Below, one piece after another: positions 9,740 through 17,472 of a DNA stretch of 23,579 nucleotides. Position 1 is the first letter of the stretch. Each line of letters starts with the position of its first letter. Under the pieces are notes generated by a model. That model had not been told where the DNA came from, ran no database searches, and worked only from the letters and a program-made list of their open reading frames with translations. The translations under genes were made by a program, and so were the position numbers. Origin of the DNA: a virus. The stretch is from positions 1-23,579 of the IMG/VR virus record IMGVR_UViG_3300040960_001763; one strand, given 5' to 3'.

Positions 9740-10190
9740 TTGCCGAGGTTGGGATGTTGCCAATTAGTGATTGCGTCAGGCGGCGCAGAGGCACGTCCGA
9801 GCCAACGGCGTCCAAAATCGTATTCAGGCTCAGCGTCAAGCTGGTTTCATCCCATTGGCCGGCTGCGACTTCGCCGTTGTACTGGTGCATCAAGGTGCCG
9901 ACGCTGGTGTCTTCTGGGGCAAGTGCCATCACATAAACGCGGGCGAGCCAGCGCTGTTGCACTGCAGTCAATGCCCAAGCCCTGGTCAACTCGTTGTTTG
10001 GGAAAACTAAGGTGGCCTCGGTGTTGTCACCGCTTCGGTTGACGGTTACGCCACTGAAGCCGTAAGGCACAAAGGTGTACTCGTCGCCCTGGAAGGTGGA
10101 CGTGGACTGGATAAAGAAGTTTTGGAAATAAAAGCTGGACGTTCCTTTTTGGTTTTGAAGGCGCAGGTAGTTGCCAAGTGCGATCTCCAT
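9723..10190 (-). CDS. Minor tail protein (lambda L / DUF1833-like position)
   Basis: A 155-residue protein whose ATG shares one base with the stop of the tape measure gene (TGATG). The sequence (MEIALGNYLRLQNQKGTSSF ... 'ATLVFPNNELTRAWALTAV', 'ARVYVMALAPEDTSVGTL') is beta-rich without enzyme motifs. It sits between the tape measure and the NlpC-like protein, where siphoviruses encode the distal tail protein (lambda M/L). The assignment rests mainly on gene order and general character; a DUF1833-type family is possible but unchecked. It probably helps form the base of the tail tip on which the hub protein assembles. Confidence 0.6.
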   Translation of the reverse strand: MEIALGNYLRLQNQKGTSSFYFQNFFIQSTSTFQGDEYTFVPYGFSGVTVNRSGDNTEATLVFPNNELTRAWALTAVQQRWLARVYVMALAPEDTSVGTLMHQYNGEVAAGQWDETSLTLSLNTILDAVGSDVPLRRLTQSLIGNIPTSANVRLR

Positions 10191-13100
10191 CAGATTCCAA
10201 GCCTCCGGCGGGTGGTGACTGATTGCTGCAGGCGGCGCAGTGCCAGCTGCTGGCCACGTTCAGCTCCTTGGCTGGCAGCTTGCTGCAGGCCGGCTTGGAA
10301 CTCTTGGTTGGTGACGTAATCCACGTTGTTGATGCGTTCGACGTTGTAGCGAACGTCGATGGCTGCTGGTGCCATTGTCGCCGTGCCGCCGCCGGATGTC
10401 TCGTCGCCGCCGGAAAGAACAGCGTTTCCGCGTGCTCCAGATGCATAACGATTCATCGCCGACTTCATCTTGCTAGCCGGAATTACATACTCCGACTCGC
10501 CGCCCTCGCCGATGATCGCATTGGTCGGTTTAGTTACATAGCCTCCTTCTGCAAGCAAGGGAGGAAGACTGAAACCTTGCGCGAAACCGTTACCACCTGG
10601 TAAAGCAGCAGGGCCGGCTCCGCTAAAACTAAAGGGTGTACCTATAGCACGTAGGACAGTAAGCACTAGCTGCTGGGCAAGTATTTGCGCCCCTAGATCA
10701 ATAAAAGCTGCACCAATCTTCTCAAACATGGCGCTAAACGCCTCACCTATAGTTTCGGTCCCGGTTACGACTGCTGCTACGGCTTGCCCAATACCTTGGG
10801 TGAAATTATCCGCAAATGTTTTAGCCGTAAACGAGGCAAGACTTTGCTTACTTAAAAGTTCATCTAACTCTCTTTGTAGCTTGTCTATATTTTCTCCTTC
10901 CGTAATGCTTTGGTCAGTTATGAAGGGCACTGCATCCGCTCTGCTTACCCGAGCTGCGGCAGCATCTCCAGCTTCTCTACTCAGCCCAACTCGTTCAAAC
11001 AACTCATCGTTTATGAGTTTGAGGGATCTGAGTTCCTGTACTCTGAGAGCCGCAGATTCAATTTGTGTGTTGAAAGTTTTATCTTGAAGTTCGTCTATCT
11101 GCTGAAAAGTTTTAGCGGTATCCAAGTTAATGCGCACATTTTCTTTATCGAATTTATTCTTAGCTTCTAAAAGTGTAACTTGCTCAAACAGAGTATCGTA
11201 TAAATCTAAAGCAGTTTTTCTGTTTCTTTCGGCTTCCTTAGCTGCTCTTTCGGCCTCTCGGGCCGCTTTTTCCTGTGCGCGGGTAAATTCTTCCTGCCTC
11301 TTACGCTGCAGTTCCAGTAGGGCTAGCTTCTTATTAAGTTGTGCGACGCTGGCAGATTCTCCGCTATTTATGGCTTGCTGTAGTTCTGCCTCAAAGCGTT
11401 TTTGGATAAGAATTTTCTCTAGGGCAAAAACTCTGCTGTCAGTAAGTTCTCCAGATGTTTGTGCCAGTGCAATCTCAGTTTGTAGGACAGCTTCTTGCTG
11501 TTTTCTGTTGTCTTTTATCTCCTTAGTGACTTTTAATTCTTTTTCTACTGCTGCTTCAATTTCTCGCTGTCGTGCAAGAATTCTGTCCCTGACTTCATCG
11601 TAATTTGAACCGAAACTTCTACCTAAGCGCTGGAAATTTTCTCTTTGTTGGGGATCAGAAGATCTCTGGGCACGTACAAAAAGATTACGTTCAGCTGTTA
11701 CTCTGGCTAAAGTACCTATTACTCCTCCAAGTACATCCGATATAAAGACACTAAATTCACTAGAAAGCTGCTGTAAAGAATTACTTAGCTCAGTGCTTAC
11801 ATCGTTGAAGTTCCTCAGCGAAACTACTCCGCGATCTCCAACTGCCCTGGCTAATGCTTTTGTGGCTTCCTCGTAAGCCTCCTGTTCTCTGCCTGCATCT
11901 TGCAAAGCTTGTATGTTCTTTTCGGCGACAGTCCCAAGGATTCCCGCAGCCGCACTCAAATTTTCTACGCTTTCTGTGGTTGCGGCAGCTTTTCGAGCTA
12001 CATCTTCTAAGGATTGGCCGATTGCAGTACCTAAAATCTGACCGCCAAAACCTGTCTTACCGGCAAAAGAACCAACGAACGAACCGAGAGTGGCTCCAGC
12101 TCCTGCGCCAAAAGCGAGCGGGAAGCCGACACCTAGAGATAGCGACTCTGTTCTTGCTCTGATCGCTTTGATACGCTCTGCTTGGTTTTTCTCGAAAGCT
12201 TGTATTCGTACAAGTCTTTTCTTCGCTTCGACTTGAGCATTAGTGGAACTAAGTACCCTCTCGGTGAAATTACTGATTGTCTGTAAAACTTGTACGTCCT
12301 GCTGGAGCCAGCTATTACCCCTTTGCAGCGCTTTAGCCCAAGATTCGGAAACACTTGAGTTATCACGCAGTTTTGTGTTTGTTTGTCCCGTAAGAGTAAG
12401 GTTTGTGTCAGTGTAGTTTGCGAGTCTGCGATTTTGCTCTTCCAGTTTTTGGTAGAATCTTGTACCCCTTTGTAGGCCCTCTGGCAAAGAATTGAGAACG
12501 TTTTTTGTGGTTTCTAATTCCTGTCTTTGTTTTTTAGTTGTATCTAATACCTCTAGGTAACCTTTGCTCAGCTGCTGAAGACCTCGCTCCTCAAAAGCGG
12601 GTAGTGCCAGCTGAGGCGGTGCTGCTTGCAGATCGCTCTGGATCTGCTGCCGTACACGCTTTGATGCGGCTATAAGCTTTTCTTCTTGACGGCGTATGGC
12701 TTTATCAATAGCGGTTTGTTCACCGGCTTCTACACTAAAAGCTTTGAAACCGCTATCTTTTCTTGCTCTTTCACTTAGTTGTACATTGCGTCGTACTCTT
12801 TCTGCAATAGCTACTTGAGGGCCTCGCGCCAGTTGCTCGACTGCTCTACGTTCTGTTTCTAGATCTCTTAGAAGATTGGTGATGCGGATAATCTCTTGCT
12901 CAATGCCTAGACCTGCAAGGGAGGATGGTTCGACAAGACCTCTAATGCGAACCAGCTCTTCGTAGTATGCCTTTACTGCTGCGGTGGTTCTGGGTACGTC
13001 TTTACCGAGCTTCTCGAAGAATCCGGCACCTAGTTTACCGCCTTCAATGTCTACACCTCTACCAGTAATGTTTTCGCCATAGAGCTTACGAAGAGCTTCA

Positions 13101-13570
13101 AAAGTTTTGAATGTTGATGTAAGTAGTTTGTCTTGCGCGGCTTGCACACCTTGTACATAATCTTGAAATCTAGCCTCGGCCGGATCTATATTTGCCGCTA
13201 AAAATTGAAAGGCTGCAGCTTGCTCGCGCAAAGCCTGCGTATTTTTAGCTAATGCAGTGGTTCCTTTAGTTGTAAGTCCGTCAAAGAATTTGTCTGCTTG
13301 AGTGGCAGCTACACGAATCTTGTCCGCAAAGTCACCCCTACCGGGTGCATCAATCCTTCTGATGTTTGTTTTAAGGGTTGCAACTGCTTCATTCAAATTT
13401 CGTATACTTAGTAGTGTTTTATTTAAGTTTGCTTGCGATACTATATCCTTAAATTTTACACTAGAAGCAGTATCGCTAAGTTCCGATACCTTACGGTTAA
13501 TTTTCTCTAACGCTCTTTCCGCAGAAGAGGCCTGGACATTTACCTTGATATTGGCGTTGTAATCGGCCAC
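10190..13570 (-). CDS. Tape measure protein
   Basis: At 1126 residues it is the second-longest gene here, between the tail chaperones and distal tail genes, as expected for the ruler that sets tail length. GTG start at 13570 with no clear ribosome site. The N-terminal 470 residues are helical and rich in Glu, Gln, Arg and Ala. Residues about 478-520 form a Gly/Ala hydrophobic segment ('FPLAFGAGAGATLGSFVG') that may enter the membrane on DNA injection. Residues about 670-795 are a strongly charged coiled coil ('REAERAAKEAERNRKTA'). Near residue 930 is 'FTQGIGQAVAAVVTGTETI', and near 1008 the typical tape-measure ending 'AEGGYVTKPTNAIIGEGG' and 'EYVIPASKM'. At about 0.15 nm per residue the tail would be roughly 170 nm (inference). 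Codon use looks more AT-rich than in the head genes. Confidence 0.92.
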   Translation of the reverse strand: MADYNANIKVNVQASSAERALEKINRKVSELSDTASSVKFKDIVSQANLNKTLLSIRNLNEAVATLKTNIRRIDAPGRGDFADKIRVAATQADKFFDGLTTKGTTALAKNTQALREQAAAFQFLAANIDPAEARFQDYVQGVQAAQDKLLTSTFKTFEALRKLYGENITGRGVDIEGGKLGAGFFEKLGKDVPRTTAAVKAYYEELVRIRGLVEPSSLAGLGIEQEIIRITNLLRDLETERRAVEQLARGPQVAIAERVRRNVQLSERARKDSGFKAFSVEAGEQTAIDKAIRRQEEKLIAASKRVRQQIQSDLQAAPPQLALPAFEERGLQQLSKGYLEVLDTTKKQRQELETTKNVLNSLPEGLQRGTRFYQKLEEQNRRLANYTDTNLTLTGQTNTKLRDNSSVSESWAKALQRGNSWLQQDVQVLQTISNFTERVLSSTNAQVEAKKRLVRIQAFEKNQAERIKAIRARTESLSLGVGFPLAFGAGAGATLGSFVGSFAGKTGFGGQILGTAIGQSLEDVARKAAATTESVENLSAAAGILGTVAEKNIQALQDAGREQEAYEEATKALARAVGDRGVVSLRNFNDVSTELSNSLQQLSSEFSVFISDVLGGVIGTLARVTAERNLFVRAQRSSDPQQRENFQRLGRSFGSNYDEVRDRILARQREIEAAVEKELKVTKEIKDNRKQQEAVLQTEIALAQTSGELTDSRVFALEKILIQKRFEAELQQAINSGESASVAQLNKKLALLELQRKRQEEFTRAQEKAAREAERAAKEAERNRKTALDLYDTLFEQVTLLEAKNKFDKENVRINLDTAKTFQQIDELQDKTFNTQIESAALRVQELRSLKLINDELFERVGLSREAGDAAAARVSRADAVPFITDQSITEGENIDKLQRELDELLSKQSLASFTAKTFADNFTQGIGQAVAAVVTGTETIGEAFSAMFEKIGAAFIDLGAQILAQQLVLTVLRAIGTPFSFSGAGPAALPGGNGFAQGFSLPPLLAEGGYVTKPTNAIIGEGGESEYVIPASKMKSAMNRYASGARGNAVLSGGDETSGGGTATMAPAAIDVRYNVERINNVDYVTNQEFQAGLQQAASQGAERGQQLALRRLQQSVTTRRRLGI

Positions 13571-13607
13571 TTACTTGCTGCACCAGCGTAAAAACAGTCT
13601 ACGACGT

Positions 13608-13632
13608 AAAAAGCCGCCGGGTTAGCGGCGGC
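13608..13632 (-). terminator. Intrinsic terminator between tail chaperone and tape measure genes
   Basis: On the minus strand GCCGCCG and CGGCGGC form a perfect 7-bp stem around the loop CTAACC, followed at once by TTTTT. The loop contains the stop codon (TAA, 13624-13622) of the frameshifted chaperone reading frame, and the 5' arm encodes its last three Arg codons. It lies 37 bases before the tape measure start, so tape measure expression would need read-through or an unseen promoter. Confidence 0.8.
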
Positions 13633-14154
13633 GTTTGGCCTTTTCCATTGCCTTTTCCTGGTCCTCATTCAGGATCTGGAAATAGGCGCTCCAGCCGAGA
13701 AGTTCTTCGGCGGTCATCTTGGTCCGAACTTCGCTAAGGGTTAGTCCCAGCTCTTTGGCGACTCCGAATTGGAGGAGGAGCCAGTTGTCCTTGCGAATCT
13801 CGGCGCTCAGGATTTTGGGTCGATTGGCTCTGCGTCGTCAGTCAAAATTGCCAGCATCAGAGATTGCAGGTCTCTGTCCTTGACTTCTTCCTTGAGAACG
13901 TCGATTTCGCCGGGGCTGAACAGCTTTTTACCTGATTCGTCGAGTGCTTTTGCGATCAGCAGCTGCAGTGCGAAGGCGTTTGCGTCGTCGGACTTGGCTT
14001 GCTTTTGAGCGCGTTCGCGTTCGGCTGCAGTCAGCGGGCTGACCCACATCTCGAAGGTGCTGCCGTCAGAAAGTTCGACTACTCGTTTGGTGGGCTCCAG
14101 ATTGGCTGCCTTGCGGAGGCGGTCAATCGCACGCACTGGAATCGAGGCGGGCAT
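13622..14154 (-). CDS. Tail assembly chaperone, -1 frameshift extension product (lambda GT-like)
   Basis: The minus-strand frame that begins at 14154 can shift by -1 at the heptamer C-CCA-AAA (13819-13813), four codons including the stop before its normal end. It then continues for 63 codons ('ILSAEIRKDNWLLLQFGVAK' ... 'EKAMEKAKRRR') to TAA 13624-13622, giving about 177 residues. The extension has no start codon with a ribosome site of its own; in the -1 frame a stop lies just before it. It shows the Trp/Leu-rich helical character of T domains ('EELLGWSAYFQILNED'). In lambda and most siphoviruses this low-level product bridges tape measure and tube subunits during tail assembly. Position directly before the tape measure gene fits. 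Frameshift efficiency cannot be known from sequence. Confidence 0.85.
13807..14154 (-). CDS. Tail assembly chaperone, unshifted product (lambda G-like)
   Basis: A 115-residue acidic, mostly helical protein (MPASIPVRAIDRLRKAANLE ... 'VLKEEVKDRDLQSLMLAIL', 'DDAEPIDPKS') from ATG 14154 to TGA 13809-13807. No ribosome site is evident. It lies between the major tail protein and the tape measure, the fixed place of the G chaperone in siphoviruses. It is not part of the finished virion in known systems but coats the tape measure to keep it soluble. The block 'STFEMWVSPLTAAERERAQK' resembles tail chaperones of the kind that hold a short beta N-terminus and a helical core. Most ribosomes should make this form; a minority should shift to the longer product. 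Confidence 0.85.
   Translation of the reverse strand: MPASIPVRAIDRLRKAANLEPTKRVVELSDGSTFEMWVSPLTAAERERAQKQAKSDDANAFALQLLIAKALDESGKKLFSPGEIDVLKEEVKDRDLQSLMLAILTDDAEPIDPKS
13813..13819 (-). promoter_or_regulatory. Programmed -1 ribosomal frameshift site CCCAAAA
   Basis: The heptamer is read GAC-CCA-AAA-TCC-TGA in the zero frame and fits the X-XXY-YYZ rule (X=C, Y=A, Z=A). After a -1 slip the tRNAs re-pair on CCC and AAA. The zero-frame stop is one codon downstream, and the -1 frame is open for 63 further codons. This is the usual arrangement at the end of phage tail chaperone genes. Confidence 0.88.
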
Positions 14155-14191
14155 GTAATCTTGGTGTTCTGTTTCTAATGTAGCGCATTAG

Positions 14192-14220
14192 AAATAAAAA
14201 ACCCCGACCGAAGCCGGGGT
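14192..14220 (-). terminator. Intrinsic terminator after the major tail protein gene
   Basis: On the minus strand ACCCCGGC and GTCGGGGT pair over eight positions (one G-U) around a TTCG tetraloop, followed by TTTTTATTT. It starts 24 bases after the major tail protein stop and lies 37 bases before the chaperone ATG. UUCG-capped GC stems with a U tract are strong intrinsic terminators, so the chaperone genes probably depend on partial read-through. Confidence 0.9.
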
Positions 14221-14244: not shown

Positions 14245-15015
14245 TCAGCTGGTAGCAAGGTCGAAGGTTGGGGTGCTGGCAGGACGGAAGTTGACGGTCA
14301 CAGATTGAGCGTCGTCTGGGTTGACGTTCATGCTGGCCGAAGTCAGCACAGCGTCGAATGCGATAGAGCGGCTCAGGGTGTCGTTCAACACGCCGCCGCT
14401 AAACACGCGATCGGTGTAGAGCTTGAAAGAAGCACCGGTCTGCTGGCGCTGAAGCACGTCCTCGATAAGGCGGTTGGACAGTGCCAGCTCTTCGTCGGTC
14501 ATGTATGCGGTGGCCGATCCAGTGCCGTCGCCGAAGCCAGGGATGTAGCTACGGAAGGGTACATACTGGCCGGGGGTTTGACCGATCGTGGTTACGTCGA
14601 TCTCGGCACGGGTGATCTCAAAGCTCCAGTCGCGGACTTGGCCGACCACTGCGTAGTCCGCGTATTCCACTTGGAAACGGTTGGAACCTGTGGCGATGCC
14701 GTCGTCGGTGATCGTGATGGTTGAGCCACCCTCGGTTTCCGAGACTTGCAGCACGCCTGTCGCTGCGGCGTAGGCAATGACGTAATAGGTGGTCCCGGCA
14801 GTAATTCCAGCAGGGAGGGTGCCGGTGCCGGCGCCGCCAGTCTGGGTGTTCACCACGCTGAACTTGACTGGATCGCCAACCCGGAAGTTCAGGTATGTAG
14901 CGATCGTGATCTCGTTGGCTACGGTGTCCACATTGGATTCACCGAACGTTCCGAGGGTTCCAGCGGGTTTGTAGTAGAGGGCGCCGGACGTGCCGGACAG
15001 TACGGTAGTTGCCAT
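14245..15015 (-). CDS. Major tail (tube) protein
   Basis: A 256-residue protein that forms the tail tube rings. The frame is open to a GTG at 15048, but ATG 15015 (MATTVLSGTSGALYYKPAG) is preferred because it matches the N-termini of the two paralogues; its ribosome site is weak (GGTAAG). After the first strand comes an inserted domain of about 80 residues (from 'FRVGDPVKFSVV' through 'LPAGITAGTTYYVIAY' and 'TGVLQVSETEGG'), a module I recognise from many phage structural proteins. The tube core then resumes: 'DWSFEITRAEIDVTTIGQTP', 'GSATAYM', 'FDAVLTSASMNVNPDD'. It sits between the tail terminator and chaperone genes, as in other siphoviruses, and is closed by its own terminator, consistent with high expression. 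Confidence 0.88.
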   Translation of the reverse strand: MATTVLSGTSGALYYKPAGTLGTFGESNVDTVANEITIATYLNFRVGDPVKFSVVNTQTGGAGTGTLPAGITAGTTYYVIAYAAATGVLQVSETEGGSTITITDDGIATGSNRFQVEYADYAVVGQVRDWSFEITRAEIDVTTIGQTPGQYVPFRSYIPGFGDGTGSATAYMTDEELALSNRLIEDVLQRQQTGASFKLYTDRVFSGGVLNDTLSRSIAFDAVLTSASMNVNPDDAQSVTVNFRPASTPTFDLATS

Positions 15016-15088
15016 GGGCTTACCAAAATGGACGTTGTGGGCGGGCACTGCCCGGCTTATTACAGGTTAGCGCCCTTCTTTACCATTA

Positions 15089-16994: not shown

Positions 16995-17189
16995 TTAATA
17001 CGATCTTTTTCTGAGTTTAGCCCTTACACGTCGTGTCGATGTTTTGGTCTGTACTTGCAGTATTGATGCGTGGTAAATGGTCGCTCCCTCCATCTGAAGC
17101 TCGGCACTTCGCTCTAGGTGGTCCCCATACGCTATGTCCTCGTGCCACTGGCGACTATTGTGTGAGACGTAAAGACGTACCAGTTTCAT
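16995..17189 (-). CDS. Small basic protein of unknown function before the connector gene
   Basis: A 64-residue protein from ATG 17189 (MKLVRLYVSHNSRQWHEDIA ... 'GATIYHASILQVQTKTSTRR') to TAA. The open frame continues upstream to 17336, but that part mirrors the plus-strand helix-turn-helix gene and has low-complexity Ser/Arg, so it is not credited. The gene stops two bases before the connector GTG, which supports it being real and coupled. No family is recognised. The C-terminus is strongly basic (TRRVRAKLRKRSY). It would be the first gene transcribed after the capsid terminator and the opposite-strand gene. Confidence 0.6.
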   Translation of the reverse strand: MKLVRLYVSHNSRQWHEDIAYGDHLERSAELQMEGATIYHASILQVQTKTSTRRVRAKLRKRSY

Positions 17190-17256
17190 GCCGCTTCGTA
17201 AATCTTCCGGTGCTGAGGGCAGCGTAAAGCTTGCAACACCAAAAGAGGACCCCGTG

Positions 17257-17472
17257 ATGCCCGGTAAGCAGATTCGCAAACTAGAAGATGTCGCGCTCGA
17301 AATTCGACGCCTTCGGGAAGAACAAAATCTCAACATTATGGAAATTGGTGAGAAGCTCCAGGTGAGTTATGACGTGATCAATCAGTTGATCCTGCAGTCC
17401 TACAAAAGCACTATGAATACTCCCGTTGTTTTTGAGAGGCAGGAGAAGATTCGGCTGGGGATTGATTATTGA
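17257..17472 (+). CDS. Small helix-turn-helix protein on the opposite strand
   Basis: The only convincing plus-strand gene. The 71-residue product starts at ATG 17257 with AGAGGA seven bases upstream; the frame extends to ATG 17188 but without such a site. Residues 12-26 are a charged helix ('VALEIRRLREEQNLN'), and residues 27-46 ('IMEIGEKLQVSYDVINQLIL') fit a helix-turn-helix: hydrophobic at 27, 30 and 34, Val-Ser-Tyr at the turn into the second helix, Ile41 and Leu44 buried. This suggests DNA binding, perhaps as a small repressor, though the protein has no further domain. It lies between the capsid terminator and the connector block, convergent with the capsid gene and divergent from the 64-residue gene. 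No good promoter or plus-strand terminator is visible. An accessory 'moron' or a late-gene regulator is inferred. Confidence 0.65.
   Translation: MPGKQIRKLEDVALEIRRLREEQNLNIMEIGEKLQVSYDVINQLILQSYKSTMNTPVVFERQEKIRLGIDY

Follow-up and report, generated by a model that had tools for sequence, protein, structure and literature searches.

A conserved terminator-type hairpin overlaps the frameshifted stop of a tail chaperone gene and probably marks a transcription-unit boundary in cyanobacterial-type tailed phages

The DNA analysed here is a viral stretch of 23,579 nt (IMG/VR record IMGVR_UViG_3300040960_001763; hereafter the window). Based on ORFs, PHROG matches and synteny with Cyanophage S-2L, a tail assembly chaperone gene lies between the genes for the major tail protein and the tape measure protein. 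The features of this region, in the direction of transcription, are as follows.

14245-15048, minus strand: ORF of the major tail protein gene, presumably highly expressed (phrog_158 major tail protein, weak match, E=0.003; synteny with Cyanophage S-2L)
14201-14220, minus strand: intrinsic terminator of the major tail protein gene, located 24 nt beyond the stop
14177-14182, minus strand: TACATT, a -10-like box, 28 nt upstream of the ATG of the chaperone gene (TACATT, TACAGT or TACACT conserved in relatives)
13807-14154, minus strand: tail assembly chaperone G, zero frame (phrog_20784, E=2e-30; phrog_344 tail assembly chaperone, E=8e-6)
13813-13819, minus strand: slippery heptamer CCCAAAA, by sequence, in the X_XXY_YYZ register
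13622-13819, minus strand: -1 frame extension (the T part of GT), stop included, from the sequence and relatives (phrog_337 tail protein, E=3e-5)
13613-13632, minus strand: terminator hairpin GCCGCCG-CTAACC-CGGCGGC (5´ arm 13632-13626, Arg codons; loop 13625-13620, stop inside; 3´ arm 13619-13613)
13608-13612, minus strand: U-tract TTTTT, by sequence
13596-13601, minus strand: TAGACT, a -10-like element of a candidate promoter, 31 nt upstream of the tape measure GTG, conserved in the hairpin-bearing clades and in many hairpin-less relatives
10190-13570, minus strand: tape measure protein gene with a GTG start (phrog_2854 tail length tape measure protein, E=4e-6)

The chaperone ORF extends on the minus strand from an ATG at 14154 to a zero-frame TGA at 13809-13807. 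Counted from the CCC of the heptamer, the -1 frame has 65 codons, 63 of them beyond the heptamer, and its product ends in KAKRRR before a TAA at 13624-13622. A sequence-only reading of this DNA had placed CCCAAAA at 13819-13813, given the -1 frame 63 codons and put the unshifted stop at 13807, about 175 bases before a stem, and these coordinates and counts are correct. The heptamer, as CCCAAAA or CCCAAAG, was present in 89 distinct relatives. By its position, family match, in-register heptamer and conserved -1 extension, the gene is a lambda-type G/GT chaperone, for which a fusion protein is predicted. It shares with lambda the location between the major tail protein and tape measure genes, the heptamer register and a short -1 extension, which would be read by a minority of ribosomes, but differs in that a terminator and a -10-like box stand between GT and the tape measure gene. 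We know of no terminator described at the end of the lambda GT gene. No stimulating structure was detected at the slip site of the window, where the 91 nt around the heptamer fold no better than shuffles (z -0.5).

Slip sites differ between groups of relatives, with -1 shifting at CCCAAAR in the clade of the window, A_AAA_AAC in KBS-S-2A and a +1 shift in a clade with AAA AG[CT]. The +1-frame extension at the conserved AAA AG[CT] was seen in 30 loci (L122, L126, L136, L137, L145-L161 and others) and, as judged from these motifs, the direction of frameshifting has switched inside one chaperone family. Another 18 loci (L010, L018, L022, L036, L051, L056 and others) carry a conserved GAC CCC AAG AAY TAR instead of a standard heptamer, with the -1 extension intact. 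Since full re-pairing would be possible for the Pro tRNA only (C_CCC), these loci may use an uncommon type of -1 site with a single slipping tRNA.

At the end of the -1 frame, a GC stem of 7 bp encloses a 6-base loop with the frameshifted TAA inside. The stop in the loop, the 7-bp stem, the TTTTT and the Arg-coding 5´ arm had all been described in the sequence-only reading and hold base for base. The 37-nt hairpin stretch has a minimum free energy of -14.9 kcal/mol, with a z of only -1.4 relative to shuffles, a modest value that reflects the GC-rich composition. Similarly, a simple scan for terminators in the window returned 17, little in excess of the 13.1 ± 3.8 expected by chance. The hairpin alone is thus unremarkable for GC-rich sequence, and comparison with relatives was needed.

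Viral contigs were therefore scanned with the chaperones of the window, of KBS-S-2A and of L122 and with an alignment, and phage records were added, giving 164 distinct gene ends; these were sampled by similarity to the queries, such that the proportions are not population frequencies. With a strict criterion (a stem of six or more pairs, four or more of them GC, and a T-tract), a terminator-type hairpin was found at the gene end in 108 of the 164 distinct relatives, compared to 3.9% with shuffled downstream sequence. The stop-to-stem distance was between -16 and +6 nt in every one of the 108, and stop and stem thus always overlap or abut: 91 have the stop in the loop and 10 have it across the stem edge, in four it lies in the 5´ arm and in three it precedes the stem by 5-6 nt. 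The frameshift is universal in the family. The sequence-only reading had suggested checking relatives for joint conservation of heptamer, stop in loop and stem; a hairpin at the frameshifted stop is widespread, but enclosure of the stop in the loop is not general and 56 of the 164 relatives have the frameshift without a hairpin by the strict scan. A few further L122-type relatives have a hairpin with one stem mismatch, which the strict scan misses. When one mismatch was allowed, registers became ambiguous, four calls were doubtful and lacked a box, and some of the distances at the major tail protein gene came out wrong; the results of this search were kept out of the distance counts. One contig carrying this phage tail module, L217, is filed under a gammaproteobacterial metagenome bin, probably a binning error.

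The pattern of substitution indicates that the stem is maintained. For the window-type hairpins, third-base variation is very low in the last three Arg codons (entropy 0.26, 0.33 and 0.08 bit), whereas two further Arg codons in this frame give 1.22 and 1.41 bit. Paired stem changes were found in L185 (C-G to T-A) and L202 (G-C to A-T), while L136 and L137 have different stems altogether with the stop still in the loop. The 108/164 conservation, the synonymous freezing and the compensatory changes together rule out a chance hairpin. We also considered whether the hairpin is a by-product of conserved Arg codons. This was ruled out by the KBS-S-2A relatives, which have KRRR with CGG codons and no hairpin. 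More generally, hairpin-less relatives keep the Arg tail with other codons or without the 3´ arm, and L163, L167 and L175, with CGC-type Arg codons but neither 3´ arm nor hairpin, show that the coding arm can exist on its own. A stop strictly in the loop was rejected as the conserved feature, since most stops in the +1-shift clade lie beside the hairpin and not within it, at the stem edge or at most 6 nt before the stem. On a quick tree with many weak forks, the hairpin occurs in two separate clades, with four changes of hairpin state. Collectively, the comparison confirms the hairpin as a real conserved element, the case resting on conservation. By its GC stem, short loop, U-tract and conservation it is an intrinsic-type terminator, at which polymerase is predicted to stop.

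Between the U-tract and the tape measure start, we noted a TAGACT at 13601-13596 that was absent from the sequence-only reading. A box of this kind lies behind the hairpin in all 108 hairpin-bearing relatives, typically 7-16 nt from the stem end, as a strict TA[AG]ACT in 102 and as a TACAAT-, TAGAAT-, TAAAAT- or TACACT-like sequence in the other six; no hairpin without a box was found among the 108 strict-scan hairpins. The box is often present where the hairpin is missing and, in hairpin-less KBS-S-2A relatives, is often superimposed on the GT stop codon (CGG TAGACTG). L110 and L118 are among the few relatives without box and hairpin; there the genes almost touch, with ~9-12 nt between them. 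Such boxes are enriched 16-60 nt before gene starts, with 17 TA[ACG]A[ACG]T seen and 3.4 expected in KBS-S-2A (p=4e-8) and three TA[AG]ACT seen and 0.2 expected in the window (p=9e-4), and in both they mostly lie ~27-35 nt from the start codon. Other TA[AG]ACT boxes in the window, at 2835-2830 and 17019-17014, are ahead of genes starting at 2793 and 16992. We read TAGACT as the -10 element of a candidate sigma-70-type tape measure promoter. Against this reading, no -35 hexamer was recognised, as a consensus scan did not list the site, although the host RNA polymerase may or may not require one. The related phage KBS-S-2A encodes a product annotated as the RNA polymerase sigma factor RpoD (CPKG_00011, L218 7779-8708), which could act on these -10 boxes. 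Because such a box intervenes in all of the hairpin-bearing relatives, the tape measure gene is probably served by a promoter of its own, and its transcription probably starts afresh downstream of the hairpin.

A strong 3´ stem-loop can protect an mRNA, and the conserved stem and arms would suit a hairpin that serves mainly as a stabiliser or processing site at the 3´ end of the chaperone mRNA rather than as a polymerase terminator. We consider this improbable given that a U-tract follows directly behind the hairpin in nearly all relatives and that the promoter-like box comes behind the U-tract, as at other terminators of these phages.

The junction between the major tail protein gene and G, in the window (14220-14177) and in relatives, shows the same order as the junction between the chaperone and tape measure genes, namely terminator, -10-like box and start, and the terminator-then-box arrangement also occurs at other KBS-S-2A junctions. 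The two junctions differ in the clearance between stop and terminator. In 85 relatives both hairpins are present; the major tail protein stop is 16-29 nt from its stem, whereas the GT hairpin has no clearance, and within the window the clearance is 20 nt for the major capsid gene and 24 nt for the major tail gene. For the E. coli terminator tR2, termination was ~90% with a stop 28 bp away and <10% with a stop 5 bp away, an effect that was lost without translation (PMC4824070). Fully translated genes thus keep a clearance that the frameshifted gene does without, as would be expected if such overlap is acceptable only at stops that few ribosomes reach. Elsewhere in the window, a perfect GCCCC-TGT-GGGGC hairpin at 18678-18666 directly follows the scaffold gene stop ahead of the major capsid gene and has no T-tract. 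A 94-codon ORF on the opposite (plus) strand at 17188-17472, between the capsid terminator and the next gene, has a helix-turn-helix look by eye and had no match in Pfam or PHROG.

We therefore favour, with a probability of roughly 0.7, the reading that the junction between the chaperone and tape measure genes is a compact transcription-unit boundary, terminator then promoter, in cyanobacterial-type tailed phages. The terminator would borrow its 5´ arm from the Arg codons of the frameshifted gene end, carry the stop of that gene in its loop and end transcripts arriving from the major tail protein and chaperone genes, and a sigma-70-type promoter with the -10 box TAGACT right behind it would initiate the tape measure transcript. 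Most ribosomes would end at the unshifted TGA ~175 nt upstream, with a few percent shifting, and the terminator would rarely be covered by ribosomes, making the overlap cheap and allowing the spacer kept by other genes to be dispensed with. Most likely, the terminator insulates the tape measure gene from the major tail protein/chaperone unit, and the overlap is probably tolerated as few ribosomes reach the frameshifted stop. One point against the boundary is that overlap or abutment is seen in 108 of 108 relatives and in two separate clades, while pure tolerance might give some longer distances.

The same point favours the interpretation put forward in the sequence-only reading, that shifted ribosomes stopping in the loop cover the hairpin and admit polymerase to the tape measure gene, such that frameshift frequency helps set the level of its mRNA. 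In all 108 relatives the terminator is within reach of a ribosome stopping in the frameshifted frame, while the major tail protein terminator stands further off, and in E. coli a ribosome stopping 5 bp before tR2 reduces termination from ~90% to <10% (PMC4824070). Frameshift-dependent read-through at the hairpin is physically plausible, and the clearance contrast, which also fits this interpretation, does not separate it from the boundary. However, the conserved -10-like box between hairpin and tape measure gene argues against dependence on read-through, and the frameshift persists without the hairpin in the 56 relatives lacking it. In addition, with a lambda G:GT ratio of about 30:1 (PMC5009743), read-through would rise by no more than ~3 percentage points, which is less than the ~10% that leaks through a terminator like tR2. 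With regard to ribosome-polymerase coupling, cyanobacteria went unmentioned in a runaway-transcription paper, and an S. elongatus paper contained no direct measure for the question. We consider control by shifted ribosomes unlikely, and slightly more so the version in which each GT-making shift opens the terminator for one polymerase, with read-through mRNA matched to GT output and the downstream promoter providing a basal level. Thus, a conserved terminator does overlap the frameshifted stop, within the range where a terminating ribosome disables tR2, but the claim that frameshift frequency sets tape measure mRNA is unsupported, and the simpler option offered alongside it, a terminator overlapping a gene end, is the better one, to which the promoter-like box is now added.

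The nearest anatomical precedent is T7 gene 10B with Tphi. As here, the stop of a -1 extension abuts an intrinsic terminator (9 nt) and unshifted ribosomes stop far upstream, but the T7 gene encodes the capsid, is transcribed by T7 RNA polymerase and has its stop before the stem rather than in the loop. As with the terminator region downstream of T7 gene 10, an influence in the reverse direction is conceivable, with the hairpin region increasing frameshifting; PMC5009743 describes for T7 an effect on frameshifting of a terminator CCCC >200 nt away, and TAACCC or TAACCCC lies ~190 nt from the shift site here. Many relatives, some with the same heptamer, nevertheless have frameshift genes without the hairpin, and we regard this explanation as very improbable. 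The tR2 study (PMC4824070) likewise concerned a terminator within ribosome reach of a stop, which in these phages is reached only after a programmed frameshift. In pyrBI-type attenuators, too, a ribosome near the terminator could block the hairpin, but here there is no leader peptide with regulatory codons and a promoter-like box is downstream of the terminator.

Each component has precedents, namely tail chaperones made by frameshifting, gene ends overlapped by intrinsic terminators and promoters located behind terminators. The conserved package of a coding 5´ arm, a stop in or at the hairpin and a -10 box behind was not found in a limited literature search, with most subscription journals outside its range. 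If shifted ribosomes did open the hairpin, a recoding event would regulate transcription of the next gene and would have been selected separately in the -1 and +1 clades; the junction is a clean place for testing whether programmed frameshifting affects transcription. As a boundary, it would show how a packed phage genome can separate tail genes whose products are required in very different amounts, by a part-coding terminator and then a promoter, and the contrast in clearance, none here and 16-29 nt at the major tail protein gene, may be a natural gauge of the numbers of ribosomes reaching each stop.
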